This document shows, one piece after another, positions 13,646-38,606 of a DNA stretch of 41,818 nucleotides (within the stretch, counting starts at the first letter, position 1; each line of letters begins with the position of its first letter). The position numbers and the translations under genes were made by a program. The stretch covers positions 1 through 41,818 of the forward strand of contig CANGGG010000021.1 in assembly GCA_947453415.1 (NCBI GenBank). The letters are read 5' to 3'. The notes under the pieces were generated by a model. It was not told the origin of the DNA. It did not search any database and saw only the letters and a list, made by a program, of their open reading frames with translations. This DNA comes from Bacteroidota bacterium. Lineage in GTDB: Bacteria; Bacteroidota; Bacteroidia; UKL13-3.

Positions 13646-16030
13646 TCAAATTTTTATAAATTTTATAACTTTATTTTTTATTTGAATAAAATAAATTCCT
13701 GGGTTTAGGTCGTAAATATTTATTTTACTTCCTGATCCAATTTTTGAAATACCACCACAAATATTTTTAATAATAAAGTTTTCAAAATCATCTACATTTG
13801 ATACGTTTATTATGTCACTTGAAGGATTAGGGTAAATATTTATATTTAAATCTAAATAAAGTGGTTTAATACTTGTTGTTGTTTTGTTTTCTAAATGCCT
13901 CTTCAATGCAATTGAATGGTTATTTCCAGCAGAAATTTCTTTCCATAAGGTATCTGTTCCAACTTTTTGAGGACTATTATAATTTATATTATTTCCCAAT
14001 CCTAATTGACCTGCAACATTTATGCCCCAAGACCATAAAGTGCCGTCATTTTTAAGTGCTAAAGTATGATTAGACCCAGATGATATTTTTTTCCAAGTAA
14101 TATCATTTCCAATCTGCCTTGGAGATTTATAATTAATTGTATCACCATGGCCAAGTTGCCCAATATCATTTCTCCCAAAAGACCATAGTTCACCGTTGTT
14201 TTTTATAGCAAAAGTATTATAACTTCCAGTTGTTATATTCCTCCAATTATTGTCAATTCCAATTTGCTGGAAATTATTGTAATTAATATTATTACCAAGT
14301 CCTAATTGACCACAATTATTCCAACCACTTGCCCAAAGTGTTCCATCTATTTTAATACCTATAAAATGATTACGTCCTAATGAAAAGTCAAGCCATTTTG
14401 TACCATCAATTTTTTGAGGTAAATTATATTTAGTATTATTAATTCCCAAACCTAATTGACCATAACTGTTATCTCCCCATCCAAACAAAGTACCATCTTT
14501 ATTTAATGCCATACTAGTTCGGTATCCAACTTTTATTACTATCCAATTACTATCTGTTCCTACTTTTTGAGGACTATTATAATTTATATTACTTCCCAAA
14601 CCTAATTGTCCTGAACCATTACTGCCCCATGACCATAAAGTGCCATCATTTTTAATTCCAAAAGATGACCATAACCCTGTTGAAATATTAACCCATGTAG
14701 TATCATTTCCCACCTTTTGAGGTGTATAAAATGTTTTATTATTACCTAAACCTAATTCACCATAATTGTTCAAGCCCCATGCCCATAGTGTGCCGTCATT
14801 TTTTATTCCAATAGTATGATCTTGATTTGTACTTATAATTTTCCAAATTGTATCTTGTTCGCATCTAACGGGTTTATTAAAATCGGAATTGGTATCTAAA
14901 CCTAATTGTCCAGAACCATTACTGCCCCATGACCACAATGTACCATCGAACTTAATTGCTAATGTATAACCTCCACCAGTAGATACTTTTGACCATTTGT
15001 ATTCGGTACTTGGCTTTACATAAACTTGTTGGGGGGTTTCATAATCTATAGTATCACCAATGCCAAGTTGCCCATTACCATTTGAACCCCATCCCCATAG
15101 TGTTCCATCTAATTTAATACCAATTAAATGACCAAGTCCAGGGGTACTAATTGAAATCCAATTTGAATTACTTAAAACTTTAGAAGGTATAGTATTTGGC
15201 CATCCCCATTCCCATATAGTGCCGTCAGTTTTTATTGCTAAAGACAGACAAAACCCTAACTCTATGAATTTCCAATTGTTGTCATTACCAACTTTTTGTG
15301 GAGTATTATAATCAATATAATTACCCAAACCCAATTGACCTGAACTGTTATCTCCCCATGCCCATAATGTTCCATCATTTTTTAGTGCCAAAGTATGGGT
15401 GTTACCAGAAACCATTAACCAATTACTATCTGTTCCCACTTTTTGAGGACTATTATAATTTATATTATTTCCCAAACCTAATTGACCATAACTGTTATCT
15501 CCCCATCCAAACAAAGTGCCATCATTTTTTATTGCAAATGTACCGGATACATATTTCCAATTATTTTCTATTCCAACCCTCTGAGGTCTATTATAGCTAA
15601 TATAATTACTAAGCCCTAATTCACCGGAGGAATTGTCACCCCAAGCCCAAAGTGTTCCATCTCGTTTTATAGCTAATGTAAAATTACCACTTGCTGAAAC
15701 AGAAATCCAATTAGTATCAACTCCTAATTTAGTTGGTTTATAATAATAAGTGAAATCACCTAAGCCTAATTGACCAGAAGAATTATCACCCCAGGCCCAT
15801 AAAGTGCCGTCATTTTGAATACCGTATACTGAACCTCCTGCACAATCTATCATTTTCCAATTTGAATTTAAGCCTACCTTTTGAGGTCTATTAAAATCAC
15901 AATTACCAACACCAAGCAAATTATTATTTGCACCCCAAACCCATAATGAGTTAAAATTTGTTTTTTGTGAAAAAAGATTTCCACATAATATAAAAATAAA
16001 AATAAAAATAAACTTTGATTTAATATTCAA
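13646..16030 (-). CDS. RCC1-repeat secreted protein with T9SS type A sorting domain
   Basis: The 794-residue protein starts with a signal peptide (KSKFIFIFIFILCGNLFSQ). It then carries about 14 RCC1-type repeats of roughly 50 residues, each built as GTLWAWGDNSSGQLGLG, a variable linker and PQKVG, followed by W and a serine-rich strand. RCC1 repeats fold into seven-bladed propellers, so two propellers are likely. Repeat 6 (GTIWEWGW...) is degenerate. The last 75 residues form a T9SS type A sorting domain: INIYPNPSSDIINVS, then LNPGIYFIQIKN and a basic end. The protein should therefore be exported by T9SS and anchored or released at the surface. Its ligand is unknown. The DNA of several repeats is nearly identical, suggesting recent duplication. 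Confidence 0.93.
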   Translation of the reverse strand: MNIKSKFIFIFIFILCGNLFSQKTNFNSLWVWGANNNLLGVGNCDFNRPQKVGLNSNWKMIDCAGGSVYGIQNDGTLWAWGDNSSGQLGLGDFTYYYKPTKLGVDTNWISVSASGNFTLAIKRDGTLWAWGDNSSGELGLSNYISYNRPQRVGIENNWKYVSGTFAIKNDGTLFGWGDNSYGQLGLGNNINYNSPQKVGTDSNWLMVSGNTHTLALKNDGTLWAWGDNSSGQLGLGNYIDYNTPQKVGNDNNWKFIELGFCLSLAIKTDGTIWEWGWPNTIPSKVLSNSNWISISTPGLGHLIGIKLDGTLWGWGSNGNGQLGIGDTIDYETPQQVYVKPSTEYKWSKVSTGGGYTLAIKFDGTLWSWGSNGSGQLGLDTNSDFNKPVRCEQDTIWKIISTNQDHTIGIKNDGTLWAWGLNNYGELGLGNNKTFYTPQKVGNDTTWVNISTGLWSSFGIKNDGTLWSWGSNGSGQLGLGSNINYNSPQKVGTDSNWIVIKVGYRTSMALNKDGTLFGWGDNSYGQLGLGINNTKYNLPQKIDGTKWLDFSLGRNHFIGIKIDGTLWASGWNNCGQLGLGNNINYNNFQQIGIDNNWRNITTGSYNTFAIKNNGELWSFGRNDIGQLGHGDTINYKSPRQIGNDITWKKISSGSNHTLALKNDGTLWSWGINVAGQLGLGNNINYNSPQKVGTDTLWKEISAGNNHSIALKRHLENKTTTSIKPLYLDLNINIYPNPSSDIINVSNVDDFENFIIKNICGGISKIGSGSKINIYDLNPGIYFIQIKNKVIKFIKI
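13957..15960. repeat. Internal DNA repeats of the RCC1 gene
   Basis: Roughly 150-bp units recur through the gene. The segment encoding NYNSPQKVGTDSNW is almost identical near 13957, 14557 and 15437, each containing CTTTTTGAGGACTATTATAA. Such identity makes unequal crossing-over and copy-number change between strains likely. It also makes short-read assembly errors possible here. Confidence 0.75.
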
Positions 16031-33173: not shown

Positions 33174-34301
33174 TTAAATATCCAACAATTGTTCTGTTAA
33201 ATATTTCCAAGTAAATTTTAGTTTTTCTACTTCCATATTGGCAGTAAATTCCTGTTCACGGTTTGCTAAATAAAAATCATTGATTGCCGCAGCAATTTCA
33301 GTCGTGTTTTTATCAACTACATAACCAACTACTTCATGAGGCACAAGCTCCGCAAGCCCGCCAACATTGGTAACGAGCATTGGTTTGCTGTAGTAATAAG
33401 CTATTTGTGTAACGCCACTTTGCGTAGCTGTTAAATAAGTTTGAACTATTAAATCGGCAGCCGAAAAATATACGCCTACTTCATTATTTGGAATAAAATC
33501 AGTTCTGAGAATCACACTGTTTTCTAATCCTAAATTTTTTATTTGTTGTAAATAAGGTTCACTGTTTTCGTAAAATTCACCTGCTACAATCAATTTTAAA
33601 TTTGGATGCGAATGTTTCAATAAAACAAAACTATCCAACAATAAACTTAAACCTTTGTATTTTCTTATAAATCCAAAAAATAATAAATAATCATCGGCTT
33701 CATTCAAACCCAATTTTCTTTTAGCTTCTTGCTTATCCAATAATGGCCCAAACATATCATACATTGGGTGCGGCACATATTTTTTTGGTTTGCCTGTGGC
33801 AAATAAATCAACATGGGCATATACTTCCCTACTCATGGCCAAAAAACCATCGCAAGCATCTATAAAATATTGGGTAAATGCGGTATCAAAAAACTGTTGT
33901 TCGTGAGGAATAATGTTATCGGCAATGGTAATGATTTTTGTCTTCCCGTTTGCTTTCATTAAGCGTGCAATGGTTCCAAATGCAGGCGCCATAAAACTCA
34001 TCCAATACCTAAAAATCACTACATCGTATTCCTTATTTTTTAATTTATTTCCAACCAAAAACCAGTTCAGTGGATTGATAGAATTAATGATAGAATAAAT
34101 GGTAATATCAGTTGGTTTTGGGTCATCGCTCATTTGCGTTTTTCCGGGAAACAATAATTTAGGATATTGTAATGAAAAACTAGCAATTTCGCACTCATGA
34201 CCTTGAGCATTAAACTCTTTGCAAAGGCGTTCGTTATAAGTAGCCAAACCACCTCTTAAAGGCCAAGCCGGACCAATAATTAGGATCTTTTTCTTAGTCA
34301 T
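33174..34301 (-). CDS. Glycosyltransferase family 4 protein
   Basis: The 375-residue cytoplasmic protein has the GT-B fold typical of GT4 enzymes. It opens with KILIIGPAWPLRGGLATYNERL, where the GG loop binds the acceptor or nucleotide. The second domain contains LLFFGFIRKYKGLSLLLDSF at about 205-225 and the donor-binding region ADLIVQTYLTATQSGVTQIAYYYSKPMLVTNVGGLAELV at 290-330, in which Gln replaces the first Glu of the usual EGFG/EAFG motif. It overlaps the upstream GT2 gene by 8 bases, so the two are translated from one transcript. Its sugar and acceptor are not known; surface polysaccharide or lipid glycan synthesis is likely. Confidence 0.92.
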   Translation of the reverse strand: MTKKKILIIGPAWPLRGGLATYNERLCKEFNAQGHECEIASFSLQYPKLLFPGKTQMSDDPKPTDITIYSIINSINPLNWFLVGNKLKNKEYDVVIFRYWMSFMAPAFGTIARLMKANGKTKIITIADNIIPHEQQFFDTAFTQYFIDACDGFLAMSREVYAHVDLFATGKPKKYVPHPMYDMFGPLLDKQEAKRKLGLNEADDYLLFFGFIRKYKGLSLLLDSFVLLKHSHPNLKLIVAGEFYENSEPYLQQIKNLGLENSVILRTDFIPNNEVGVYFSAADLIVQTYLTATQSGVTQIAYYYSKPMLVTNVGGLAELVPHEVVGYVVDKNTTEIAAAINDFYLANREQEFTANMEVEKLKFTWKYLTEQLLDI

Positions 34302-35265
34302 TATAACCGATGTATTTGGTTATTCCATAATGGTTTCTTTCGTTTGAATTTCGGCTAATTAATTCACCAATAAATCCAGCTAAAAACAATTGCATACCAA
34401 TTATGATTGAAACCAAAGAAACATAAAACATGGGTTGTTCTGTAATTCCCCTATTTAAATTCATATTATGTGAAATATACCATAATTTTTGGAGACCAAT
34501 ATAAGCTGCTCCAAAAAAACCAAACATAAAAAATAAAGTACCTAAAACTCCAAAGAAATGCATGGGTTTTTTACCAAATTTTGAAACAAAAAATATGGTT
34601 AACAAATCAAGGAAACCATTGATAAAACGGTCGAAACCAAACTTGGTAACACCATATTTACGCGCTCTATGAACAACTTCTTTTTCTGTAATTTTTGTAA
34701 AGCCATTCCACTTAGCTAAAACCGGAATGTAACGGTGCATTTCATTATAAACTTCAATGGCTTTAACCACATCTACTTTATATGCTTTTAAACCACAATT
34801 GAAATCGTTCAATTCTATTCCACTCATTTTGCGAGTTGCCCAATTAAAAATTTTTGTAGGAAGAGTTTTAGTAATTGGATCGTAACGTTTCTTTTTCCAA
34901 CCACTTACCAAATCAAAACCATCGTTAACTATCATGTTATATAAACCCGGAATTTCATCAGGACTATCTTGCATATCGGCATCCATTGTTATTACCACAT
35001 TGCCTTGCACTTTATGAAAAGCTACGTTTAATGCGGCAGATTTACCATAATTTCTTCTGAATTTGATGGCTTTAATAAATGGATTAGTTACTGAAAGTTT
35101 TTCTACAACGGCCCAACTATTATCGGTGCTGCCATCGTCAACCATAATAATTTCATAAGTGAAATTATTTTCATTCATTACGCGTTCAATCCAAGCCAAC
35201 AATTCTGGCAACGATTCATCTTCATTATAAAATGGTATTACAACCGATATTTGAATTTCTTTCAC
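34294..35265 (-). CDS. Family 2 glycosyltransferase (DPM1/GtrB-like)
   Basis: The 323-residue protein begins with a GT-A domain: VVIPFYNEDESLPELL at 9-24, IIMVDDGSTDNSW around 39-51, RNYGKSAALNVAF at 70-82, and the metal-binding DADMQDSPDE at 95-104. A motif NDFNCGLKAYK follows at 153-163. Two membrane helices near residues 232-255 and 280-305 anchor it. This layout matches enzymes that move a sugar from a nucleotide to polyprenyl phosphate on the inner face of the cytoplasmic membrane (DPM1/ArnC/GtrB-type). It is the fourth gene of the five-gene operon. The donor sugar is not defined by the sequence. Confidence 0.93.
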   Translation of the reverse strand: MKEIQISVVIPFYNEDESLPELLAWIERVMNENNFTYEIIMVDDGSTDNSWAVVEKLSVTNPFIKAIKFRRNYGKSAALNVAFHKVQGNVVITMDADMQDSPDEIPGLYNMIVNDGFDLVSGWKKKRYDPITKTLPTKIFNWATRKMSGIELNDFNCGLKAYKVDVVKAIEVYNEMHRYIPVLAKWNGFTKITEKEVVHRARKYGVTKFGFDRFINGFLDLLTIFFVSKFGKKPMHFFGVLGTLFFMFGFFGAAYIGLQKLWYISHNMNLNRGITEQPMFYVSLVSIIIGMQLFLAGFIGELISRNSNERNHYGITKYIGYND

Positions 35266-35301: not shown

Positions 35302-35859
35302 TTACATGTCAAGGCTTTTGTAAGTATCTTCAGGATTGCGTTTTTGAACAAAAATAGCAATGATTAAACTTACAATCAATACATAAAAATTTACTCCAAA
35401 TAATTGTCCTGAAATTTTTGATTCTGCAGAATTTTTATCTTTCATGGCTCCGATTATTTCCATTTTTTTATCTTCATCAAAATAATCCATTTCCAAAATT
35501 GCTTTTTTAGCAGTTTCAATCTCTTTCAACAACTCTTCAGGATTAATGAATTTATAAAAAATAAACTTCCAAGCTGCTAAAATTATAGAAGCCATTACCC
35601 CAATAAACAAAGCTGTTTTCAACACTTCTGAATATTTGCTAAATCCATTAACTTGTTGGTCTCTTCTTATTTTCATTCCTAAAAATAATGTGGTAACCGA
35701 TGAAGTCAATAAAACAACAGAATCTATCAATGGATGTTCGCCTCTGTTAACTCCAGCAATCAAAAATACTAAATCGAGAATGATAATTGCAGCAGCATAA
35801 ATAATTCCAAATTTTAAAGCATGAAGCCAAAGTGGTGTTTCGTTTTCTTGGTATTCCAT
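35302..35859 (-). CDS. DUF4199 membrane protein
   Basis: The 185-residue protein has four membrane segments (about 12-33, 40-60, 82-104 and 152-172) and matches the DUF4199 pattern: LHALKFGIIYAAAIIILDLVF, then SVTTLFLGMKIRRDQQVNGFSKYSEVLKTALFIGVMASII, a charged segment rich in Glu/Lys (EELLKEIETAKKAI), and the final membrane helix. The function of DUF4199 is unknown; it commonly lies beside glycosyltransferase and dihydroorotase-like genes in Bacteroidota, as here. It starts 5 bases after the upstream gene and 36 bases before the GT2 gene. Confidence 0.88.
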   Translation of the reverse strand: MEYQENETPLWLHALKFGIIYAAAIIILDLVFLIAGVNRGEHPLIDSVVLLTSSVTTLFLGMKIRRDQQVNGFSKYSEVLKTALFIGVMASIILAAWKFIFYKFINPEELLKEIETAKKAILEMDYFDEDKKMEIIGAMKDKNSAESKISGQLFGVNFYVLIVSLIIAIFVQKRNPEDTYKSLDM

Positions 35860-35864
35860 TTAAA

Positions 35865-36527
35865 TTAATTATGGTTGGTAAAGGCTAATAATGCAGCAAG
35901 CACACTTATTTCAAAAGCATTGTATTTGCCTTTAAATTGACCTAACATTTCAGTTGAATATGGTGTTTGGAAAAACATCACCATTGGAATAAATATTTCT
36001 TTTATTTCCGATGAATCTGGTAAAGTAGCTTTCAATTTTGTCAAATCGTCAAAATCAGCTTCATCCAAATCGTTTTCTATCAAAGGCTCATATATTTTAA
36101 ATTCATCTTGAAATTCGTCCATGTCAGTTAACAAAAATTCATTCAAGAAATCTTCAATCGAAATATTTGCATCCGCATCATTGGCTTCATTAATGTATAA
36201 AAACACATTTAATAATTCAGTGCCGCGTTCTACTGTTTTCTCTTCTATTTCTTCCCATTCTTCTGAGTCAAAATACTCTTCATCGTGTGCAAAAGCTGAT
36301 AAAAAATGAACCAACATTAAGTCAAAAACTACCTCTTCTATTTCGCCATAACCGCCTTTATTCATTAATGTATCCAGCGATTTCATTTTGTTTTCAAACG
36401 AATCTATCGACACAAATATTTGACTGCAATTGTCATATATATTTGTTAAATTTTTTCCTTCTGCATAAGTTCCAAGCAAAGCTTGTAGTGAATTCAATAT
36501 CACTTTATTTTGGTGTTCTATGATCAT
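35865..36527 (-). CDS. Acidic cytoplasmic protein of unknown function
   Basis: The 220-residue protein is all-helical in appearance and strongly acidic, with runs such as HDEEYFDSEEWEEIEE (79-96) and ENDLDEADFDDLTK. It has no signal or membrane segment. I do not recognise a family. It lies 3 bases from the dihydroorotase-like gene and 5 bases from DUF4199, so it is certainly co-transcribed with both. The tight linkage suggests a role with the glycosyltransferases or the degenerate dihydroorotase, but that is inference from position. A possible protein-protein adaptor is one reading. Confidence 0.72.
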   Translation of the reverse strand: MIIEHQNKVILNSLQALLGTYAEGKNLTNIYDNCSQIFVSIDSFENKMKSLDTLMNKGGYGEIEEVVFDLMLVHFLSAFAHDEEYFDSEEWEEIEEKTVERGTELLNVFLYINEANDADANISIEDFLNEFLLTDMDEFQDEFKIYEPLIENDLDEADFDDLTKLKATLPDSSEIKEIFIPMVMFFQTPYSTEMLGQFKGKYNAFEISVLAALLAFTNHN

Positions 36528-36530
36528 TTT

Positions 36531-37814
36531 TTAAAATGTTTGTATTTTGTTTTTATAGTAAGTGGCAATTACTTTGCCTTTTAATTCTTTGTTGTAAACC
36601 ATGCTATTTCTTGATTTCGAAAAATTGGTTTTATCATTCAATATCCATTTTTTATTGGCATCAAAAATAATAAAATCTGCTGCTTCTCCTTTTTCAAAAA
36701 CAGGAATTGGTTTGTTTAAAATTGTTCTTGGATTGGTGCTTAATTTCTGAACCAATAAATTGGTATCAAAATTATTAGGTGCATTTGCTAACAGCAATGG
36801 CAATGCAGTTTGTAGCATTATCATACCTTCGTCAGCATATTCAAATTCTACTTCTTTTAGCTCTGTATTTTGGGGCAAATGGTCAGTTACAATCGCATCA
36901 ATTGTTCCATCTATTAATCCATTCCAAAGTGCTTTTCTATCTTCTTTGCTGCGCAATGGTGGATTCAATTTTAAGTTAGAATTATAATCAACCAAATCGG
37001 TATCGGTAAAACATAAATTGGCAATGGCCACATCGCAGGTAATTGGCAAACCTTTTTTCTTGGCTTTTTGAATAATTTCAACTGAAACTTTACTTGAAAT
37101 ATGCGAAAAATGAATGCTTGAATTGGTGTATTTTGCTAATTCAATATCACGTTTAATGGCCAATTCTTCTGTAATGGAAGGAATGCCTTTTAAACCCAAA
37201 AGCACACTGGTATTTCCTTCGTGCATTCTTCCTCCGTTACTTAAATTCAAATCTTCGGCATGAGTAAAAACTTTAGCACCAAATATTTGAGCATATTGCA
37301 AAGCACGAAGCATTAAACTGCTATTTTTAACAGCATGATTAGCATCTGTAAAACCAATGGCTCCGGCTAAGTGCATGTCGTACATTTCACTCATCTCCTT
37401 GCCTTCCATTTTATTACTTAATGTGCCAAAAGGCAATAAAGTTACCGGTAAATTCTTTGATTGATTGATGACATATTCCACCGCACTTTTACTGTTAATG
37501 CTTGGCTCACTGTTGGGCAAAACACATACAATTGAAAATCCGCCAGCATTTGCTGTTTGAGCCAAAGTGGCTAAAGTTTCTTTGTGTTCATTACCGGGGT
37601 CGGAGCTGTGAGTGCGCAAACAAACCAAACTTGGTAATAAACTGGCTTTTTTGGCATCAATAACTTGCTTGTATTTTTGAGTTTTTGAAAATGATTTTTT
37701 GCTACTTAAAACTATAGTATCAATATGATTATCAACTATCAATACATCGCAAACTTTATTTAAAAAAGGACTTGCAGGAAAGCAAACAGTGGCATTTAAA
37801 ATGAGTATTTCCAT
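36531..37814 (-). CDS. Dihydroorotase homologue with degenerate active site
   Basis: The 427-residue protein is clearly of the amidohydrolase/PyrC class (multifunctional-type): it has PSLVCLRTHSSDPG at 61-74, CVLPNSEP, VFTHAEDLNL, HFSHISSK, TCDVAIANLCFTD, and AIVTDHLPQN. In an active enzyme the first motif is DxHxHxREPG: here Asp is Cys65, the first His is Arg67, and Arg is Ser71, while His69 remains. The TPHH metal-ligand motif is replaced by AIAN. Later His and Asp residues persist. Loss of several metal ligands makes dihydroorotase activity unlikely. A non-catalytic structural role, as for the PyrC-prime of Pseudomonas, is possible, as is a new function. It leads the five-gene operon. Confidence 0.88.
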   Translation of the reverse strand: MEILILNATVCFPASPFLNKVCDVLIVDNHIDTIVLSSKKSFSKTQKYKQVIDAKKASLLPSLVCLRTHSSDPGNEHKETLATLAQTANAGGFSIVCVLPNSEPSINSKSAVEYVINQSKNLPVTLLPFGTLSNKMEGKEMSEMYDMHLAGAIGFTDANHAVKNSSLMLRALQYAQIFGAKVFTHAEDLNLSNGGRMHEGNTSVLLGLKGIPSITEELAIKRDIELAKYTNSSIHFSHISSKVSVEIIQKAKKKGLPITCDVAIANLCFTDTDLVDYNSNLKLNPPLRSKEDRKALWNGLIDGTIDAIVTDHLPQNTELKEVEFEYADEGMIMLQTALPLLLANAPNNFDTNLLVQKLSTNPRTILNKPIPVFEKGEAADFIIFDANKKWILNDKTNFSKSRNSMVYNKELKGKVIATYYKNKIQTF

Positions 37815-37895: not shown

Positions 37896-38606
37896 TTAAT
37901 GCATTTTACCAATTACTAACCACCTGAAAGCCCAAGCCCATTTTAATTTAATATTACTGAATTGAACATTGCAATTTTCTATTATTTGAAGCCAATCATT
38001 TTTAACAAAACCCCTTGCTACAGAATGCTTCGCATCGTTTTTCACTAAATACGATTTGCTAAATATTTGCGTAAGCCAAGCAATGGAATAATAAGCAAAA
38101 AAATGGCGGTGTAAATCGTTGATGATAAAACCTTGTTTGGCATTCGCGTTACACCATTTTATTAATTTAATAATTTCTTGGTCTGTTAAATGATGAGTAA
38201 ATAAACAAGCTAAGGCAAAATCAAATTGAATATTCATGCTTGGCAAATGCTTATAATCTGCTTCAATAAATGTAATTTCAGGAAAATCTTTTGCTTGCTT
38301 TATTGCATAATCAATGCAATCTTTTTTTAAATCAACACCAATAAAATTAAATTTAAAACCATTTTTTCTTGCCCATTTGGACAAATAAATTAGGTTATCG
38401 CCACCACCACAACCAATATCTATTAAAGTATAAACTGTATTTTTTTCAAGTTTAAATTGCTTTAATCCTTTTAACGTAACTTGATGTCCGCCAAGCCAAG
38501 TATTTATAATATTTAGCTCTAATAAATTTTGGTATAAATCCCTAGCTGGAATATCGTTTTGGTCTAATAATTCTTTTTGTAATGACCTAGCTTTGAAGTT
38601 TAACAT
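37896..38606 (-). CDS. Class I SAM-dependent methyltransferase
   Basis: The 236-residue cytoplasmic enzyme has the Rossmann methyltransferase core: motif I LIDIGCGGGDN at 62-72, the acidic motif II FIGVDLKKDCIDYA at 87-100, FIEADYKHLP at 112-121, and the post-core FDFALACLFTHHL at 128-140. The N-terminal KARSLQKELLDQNDIPARDLYQNL and the C-terminal FFAYYSIAWLTQI resemble a methyltransferase commonly found beside type III polyketide synthase or flexirubin-like genes in Bacteroidota. None of those is nearby. The acceptor is unknown. It is monocistronic, with 81 bases to the pyrC-like gene on the same strand. Confidence 0.85.
   Translation of the reverse strand: MLNFKARSLQKELLDQNDIPARDLYQNLLELNIINTWLGGHQVTLKGLKQFKLEKNTVYTLIDIGCGGGDNLIYLSKWARKNGFKFNFIGVDLKKDCIDYAIKQAKDFPEITFIEADYKHLPSMNIQFDFALACLFTHHLTDQEIIKLIKWCNANAKQGFIINDLHRHFFAYYSIAWLTQIFSKSYLVKNDAKHSVARGFVKNDWLQIIENCNVQFSNIKLKWAWAFRWLVIGKMH

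Follow-up and report, generated by a model that had tools for sequence, protein, structure and literature searches.

The class A2 aspartate transcarbamoylase (ATCase) of Pseudomonas consists of PyrB and PyrX (PyrC'), an inactive, full-length homolog of type I dihydroorotase (DHO), with a separate protein serving as the catalytic DHO. In P. aeruginosa, PyrB is an inactive monomer that forms an active dodecamer when the inactive DHO chain PyrX is added, and the ATCase activity of this bacterium requires PyrX, without which PyrB does not assemble into active trimers (PMC7053772). Disruption of the PyrX candidate of Sinorhizobium meliloti results in pyrimidine auxotrophy (PMC5929573). The class A1 complex of Aquifex aeolicus (3d6n, 4bjh) combines ATCase with a DHO that retains H61, H63, D153 and D305 and functions as an enzyme within the complex. 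In the fungal CAD-like protein (Ura2, Chaetomium; 5nnl), an inactive DHO that is held with ATCase forms one of the domains of a single long chain.

The window, that is, the whole stretch of 41,818 nucleotides of Bacteroidota DNA analyzed here, encodes a type I DHO homolog that invites comparison with these systems; we denote this protein and its orthologs pseudo-DHO (pDHO). Like PyrX, pDHO is, judging by its sequence, an inactive full-length homolog of type I DHO that coexists with a separate catalytic DHO, and it occurs with PyrB and without PyrI. The presence of pDHO also follows the type of PyrB. Unlike the complex of Pseudomonas, a complex of pDHO with PyrB is a prediction. Adjacency to pyrB is a usual but not a defining feature of class A2, and pDHO does without it in all 75 loci surveyed in the class to which this bacterium belongs, unlike the Sinorhizobium gene. 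The fold of pDHO is the same as that of the Aquifex DHO, and its nearest active homologs adjoin pyrB but, in contrast to the Aquifex enzyme, pDHO lacks the counterpart of H61. The arrangement in the fungal protein resembles the one that we propose for pDHO, although the sequence similarity is weak (E 7e-7). Finally, the PRK09236-type DHO of Bacteroidota, represented by the Porphyromonas gingivalis structure 2gwn, belongs to the same superfamily and is encoded in the same genome but, unlike pDHO, is the probable catalytic DHO.

Active-site residues of the window protein and other dihydroorotases of the genome

The window protein matches TIGR00857 with 327 bits (cut-off 279), and the homology extends over its whole length. 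In the alignment with the Aquifex DHO, the segment L-V-C65-L-R67-T-H69-S-S71-D-P-G corresponds to I-D-I-H61-V-H63-L-R65-D-P-G, with Cys in place of the motif Asp, Arg in place of the first His and Ser in place of the following Arg, the second His of the metal motif being retained (H69, equivalent to H63). In the position of the TPHH motif (NPNH in Aquifex), the protein contains AIAN, which ends with Asn266. The other ligand positions, namely, Asp157 (D153), His185 (H180), His238 (H232) and Asp311 (D305), are occupied by the same residues as in the active enzyme. The original prediction, which described a full-length homolog with CLRTH in place of DxHxH and AIAN in place of TPHH but with the remaining motifs intact, is thus borne out by the Aquifex alignment and the profile match.

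The Arg that follows HxH and the His of TPxH bind the substrate in DHO enzymes; both are absent from the window protein, with Ser71 and Asn266 found instead. The full zinc-ligand and catalytic set H61, H63, D153 and D305 that characterizes active type I DHO of the TIGR00857/PRK09357 kind is incomplete as well. The Aquifex DHO binds a single zinc via H61, H63 and D153, and retains activity when H180 and H232 are replaced with Ala (PMC3880350). Because H61, H63 and D153 hold the zinc whereas H180 and H232 are dispensable in that enzyme, the replacement of H61 is the weightiest of the losses. Without the residues that define an active DHO, the window protein should not go under this name; as had been predicted, it probably is incapable of normal DHO activity.

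Table 1. Coordinates of pDHO, its replaced active-site codons and the neighboring genes in the window
Feature	Position	Strand	Basis or remark
Methyltransferase gene	37896-38606	-	same strand, 81 nt upstream of pDHO
pDHO, type I DHO homolog, 427 aa	36531-37814	-	ATG start; TIGR00857, predicted structure, tree
Arg67 codon (metal ligand His61 in Aquifex)	37614-37616	-	alignment with Aquifex DHO
Ser71 codon (substrate-binding Arg65 in Aquifex)	37602-37604	-	alignment with Aquifex DHO
Asn266 codon (His of the TPxH motif)	37017-37019	-	alignment with Aquifex DHO
Acidic, all-helical 220-aa protein	35865-36527	-	3 nt downstream of pDHO
DUF4199 protein	35302-35859	-	PF13858, 64 bits; frequent but not constant neighbor of pDHO
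Family 2 glycosyltransferase (GT2)	34294-35265	-	PF00535; PRK10714-like below the cut-off
Group 1 (GT4-type) glycosyltransferase	33174-34301	-	PF00534

The search for a second DHO that the original prediction called for yielded two further DHO homologs in the genome, both of the PRK09236 type and 27-28% identical to pDHO, which rules out pDHO as the sole DHO of this bacterium. In one of these (locus L012, 4625-5962), which closely resembles 2gwn (E 1e-151), the carbamylated-Lys motif is intact (VKIFMGSSTG). A DHO of the PRK09236 type was detected in all 18 pDHO-containing genomes tested (53-70% identity) and also, without pDHO, in a PyrI-linked genome (G300) and in a genome with a Bacillus-like PyrB (G075). 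The PRK09236-type DHO is the probable catalytic DHO of the window's genome. The remaining homolog (locus L011, 4345-5688, minus strand; G000 contig C31), which adjoins a gene for a 278-aa protein, has CGITDDGLY rather than CGVKIFMGSSTG in the carbamylated-Lys region and may be another DHO that has degenerated or been re-purposed.

Conservation and phylogeny of the pseudo-dihydroorotases

A clear ortholog of pDHO (41-97% identity) is encoded in 61 of the 64 genomes of the window's order, and the three genomes without it are 65-84% complete. The position of the first His is occupied by Arg in all 30 orthologs compared, so Arg67 is not a sequencing error, and several of these proteins have lost further ligands. 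Beyond the order, a phylum-wide search and motif tables show that almost every genome sampled from the class encodes pDHO; the named relatives that carry it include Spirosoma, Dyadobacter, Larkinella, Emticicia, Cesiribacter, Litoribacter, Brumimicrobium and Fluviicola, which points to Bacteroidia as the class in question. The ligand replacements differ from family to family; homologs from outside the class retain the H-x-H, D, H, H, D series.

Comparison of 98 pDHOs (70% non-redundant) with 23 active homologs showed that none of the former contains all four of H61, H63, D153 and D305, and in 94 of them the first His is absent. Among the 98 proteins, the H61 column is more variable than 76% of the alignment columns and the H63 column is more variable than 94%. 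The Arg after HxH is present in all 23 active homologs but only in 19 pDHOs, and the His of TPxH in 21 and 37, respectively. By contrast, the motif Asp is retained in 97 of the 98 pDHOs, its replacement with Cys being peculiar to the window's genus. The comparison of orthologs that had been proposed as a check thus confirms the substitution of the first His as a shared feature but limits the Asp to Cys change to a single genus.

The dN/dS values between the window gene and five congeneric relatives range from 0.05 to 0.16, that is, pDHO is under purifying selection, and together with the retention of the gene across the order, this supports the earlier claim that selection acts on the protein. 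Taken with the residue losses, these values lend good support to the view that an apparently dead enzyme is maintained by purifying selection. The orthologs and the dN/dS values rule out a pseudogene or sequencing error. In one genome of the window's family (G032, contig C21:44835-46088), the match to pDHO contains two in-frame stop codons, TAG and TAA, which reflect either decay of this copy or an error of assembly.

Phylogenetic analysis of 84 DHO sequences, from which the Pseudomonas PyrX was left out, showed that the pDHOs with lost ligands comprise a single clade with 99% SH-aLRT support, located beside the active DHOs of the same phylum. The active members of pyrB-DHO pairs from this phylum (G329, G298 and G067) fall outside the clade, and 20 of the 23 active DHOs that are the nearest named homologs are encoded directly next to pyrB. 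A recent, local loss of the ligands in the window's genus is ruled out given that the loss is class-wide and has a single origin. The position of the clade next to the active DHOs of its own phylum suggests, at the level of sequence, that pDHO was inactivated separately from the Pseudomonas PyrX. Under the simplest history, an active DHO would have been in complex with PyrB at the outset; a DHO of the PRK09236 type would then have arrived or been put to use; the old DHO would have lost catalysis, remaining as a frame for ATCase, and moved away from pyrB; and, finally, pDHO would have been lost where a self-sufficient or a PyrI-bound ATCase took over.

Distribution of pDHO and types of PyrB

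In all 93 genomes with a clear pDHO (65 genomes of the class from the phylum sample and 28 from the class sample), there is a PyrB that matches the PyrB of the window's genome with E<1e-90. Of the 24 class genomes without pDHO, 15 encode PyrI and a PyrB that is 34-38% identical to it, six have a PyrB of 40-44% identity and no PyrI, and three gave no PyrB match. We take the PyrB of these six genomes to be Bacillus-like, a judgment made by the closing motif and the resemblance to the B. subtilis PyrB rather than by a tree. Thus, pDHO is found in none of the 15 PyrI genomes of the class, and a search for a PyrI chain in the window's genome found none. The association between pDHO and PyrB type is characterized by a Fisher p of 2e-25, a value that ignores shared ancestry. 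Because most of the genomes share ancestry, the pattern is underlain by few independent changes, perhaps about five by our estimate, so that its strength lies in the agreement of these changes and not in the p-value. The PyrBs of the pDHO genomes themselves form one clade (99%), apart from the PyrI-linked and the Bacillus-like PyrBs.

Several individual genomes depart from the common arrangement. In G134 (contig C23:494500-496836; L270), an active type I DHO located beside a 47% identical PyrB stands in place of both pDHO and the usual PRK09236-type DHO, as though a complete ATCase-DHO pair had been brought in by exchange; both PyrB and pDHO are missing from a congener, G228. In G381, a PyrB of 61% identity accompanies a pDHO-like protein that is very diverged, and in G373 (contig C230; L269, L237), the pDHO-like protein is extremely diverged and PyrB was not found, a divergence that might be expected if the loss of PyrB lifts the constraint on pDHO.

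In the window's genome, pyrB is located on another contig, next to a pyrR-like gene. Among solved ATCases, the nearest in sequence to its product is 6pnz, just ahead of the Aquifex ATC, and no DHO chain is shown in the 6pnz entry. The segment IKKVP near the N-terminus, which is shared by this PyrB and the PyrBs that adjoin active DHOs, was examined as a candidate signature of PyrB in complex with DHO and dropped, being missing from the Aquifex ATC.

Gene neighborhood, alternative explanations and proposed role

The pDHO gene belongs to a tight, co-directional gene array, with gaps of 3 and 5 nt, in agreement with the operon described originally, but it does not clearly lead this array: the methyltransferase gene precedes it on the same strand (Table 1), and no terminator-like site was found between the two. 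In many relatives, a BatA-like gene comes before pDHO. The 220-aa protein, with 46 Asp/Glu and 13 Lys/Arg residues, has 47 non-redundant homologs beside pDHO orthologs and is encoded directly after pDHO both within the window's order and in families f2, f66 and f82. It matched no family in Pfam or NCBIfam, and its all-helical predicted model (pLDDT 88.9) has no convincing counterpart in the PDB, the best Foldseek E value being 2.1 and the VIA Z of 9.2, to a helical protein, being within noise; this protein is the best lead to something new at the locus. The family 2 glycosyltransferase resembles undecaprenyl-phosphate sugar transferases. Elsewhere in the window (13646-16030, minus strand), there is a gene for a 794-aa protein with repeated, RCC1-like WGDNSxGQLGLG units and a C-terminal sorting-like domain.

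With BatA, DUF4199 or GT2 adjoining pDHO in many families, and given the tight array and the recurrent 220-aa protein, pDHO might serve envelope or glycan biology together with its neighbors, its link to PyrB reflecting merely shared ancestry. However, pDHO stays while the neighbors differ: some families have BatA, the 220-aa protein, DUF4199, GT2 and GT4, family f5 has BatA together with a hydrolase and a 108-aa protein, and Spirosoma and Dyadobacter have GcvH with DUF4199. Moreover, DUF4199 is found in 22 of 23 class genomes without pDHO, which, along with the changing neighbors, weakens any derivation of function from the operon, and the absence of pDHO where PyrB differs or is absent would have no explanation. 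We therefore consider this possibility improbable, and the role outside pyrimidine synthesis that had been suggested from the operon is disfavored also by the correspondence between pDHO and the type of PyrB. It is similarly unlikely that pDHO has acquired a second role as a link between ATCase and the envelope/glycan operon, with the 220-aa protein as one conceivable connection; if so, the supply of pyrimidines (UMP/UDP-sugars) would be coupled to glycan assembly, and independence from pyrB and from catalysis would have enabled this coupling.

The two other alternatives hold that pDHO still is a catalyst. Action on a different substrate or by a metal-free mechanism could be read from the conserved motif Asp and D153 (the latter in 87 of the 98 pDHOs), from the invariant H312, K282 and R288, and from D146, E143, Y229 and E318, which are more conserved in pDHOs than in active DHOs. 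The metal- and substrate-binding positions nevertheless vary by family with no common replacement, and a single new constellation of residues in the old active site is not seen among the 98 proteins, which makes another reaction very unlikely. That pDHO is a weak DHO that continues to contribute to the third step of the pathway would fit the persistence, in the window's genus, of the second His, Asp157, both beta-site His and Asp311. Yet the lost H61 coordinates the zinc directly in the Aquifex DHO, Arg67, Ser71 and Asn266 occupy the places of that ligand and of the two residues that bind the substrate, the genome encodes a separate DHO, and some relatives have lost still more ligands, so that residual DHO activity is hardly to be expected.

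The reading that we consider likely is that pDHO is a non-catalytic, structural subunit of a class A2-like ATCase. Of the two roles mentioned in the original prediction, it is the structural partner that the comparative data favor, with PyrB as the partner. Most likely, the dead pDHO is retained because it still builds the frame for ATCase, the preceding enzyme of the pathway. Dimers of pDHO would join two PyrB trimers into a dodecamer and would stabilize the PyrB catalytic trimer in the manner of the Pseudomonas PyrX, and the separate PRK09236-type DHO would carry out the third step. Thus, pDHO would be in physical contact with PyrB, which would need it for activity or stability. The AlphaFold model of pDHO (pLDDT 93.3) has its best structural match in the Aquifex DHO of the ATC complex (3d6n; TM 0.92, VIA Z 56), which is weak evidence of a bound state because the lower scores of the free Aquifex chains are due in part to missing disordered loops. 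Counting against a role as an ATCase subunit, pDHO is encoded away from pyrB and has conserved non-pyrimidine neighbors in several families. The small number of independent changes behind the co-distribution, the diverged pDHO-like proteins of G373 and G381 and the similarity of PyrB to 6pnz likewise count against this role.

No description of a Bacteroidota pseudo-DHO was found in the literature searched, with subscription papers largely outside its scope; the work of Labedan et al. from 2004, on the evolution of ATCases, may touch on the subject. If the proposed role is correct, the annotation as dihydroorotase that this protein carries in a large part of Bacteroidia does not denote an enzyme, and a class A2-like ATCase, unrecorded in the literature searched, would operate in most of the class members that lack PyrI. 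The class then presents a natural experiment, with active ATCase-DHO pairs, a clade of pseudoenzymes whose active sites have decayed in a different way from family to family, and lineages without the pseudoenzyme that possess a PyrI-linked or Bacillus-like ATCase. Why a dead enzyme persists as a scaffold would thereby become a directly testable question in Bacteroidia.
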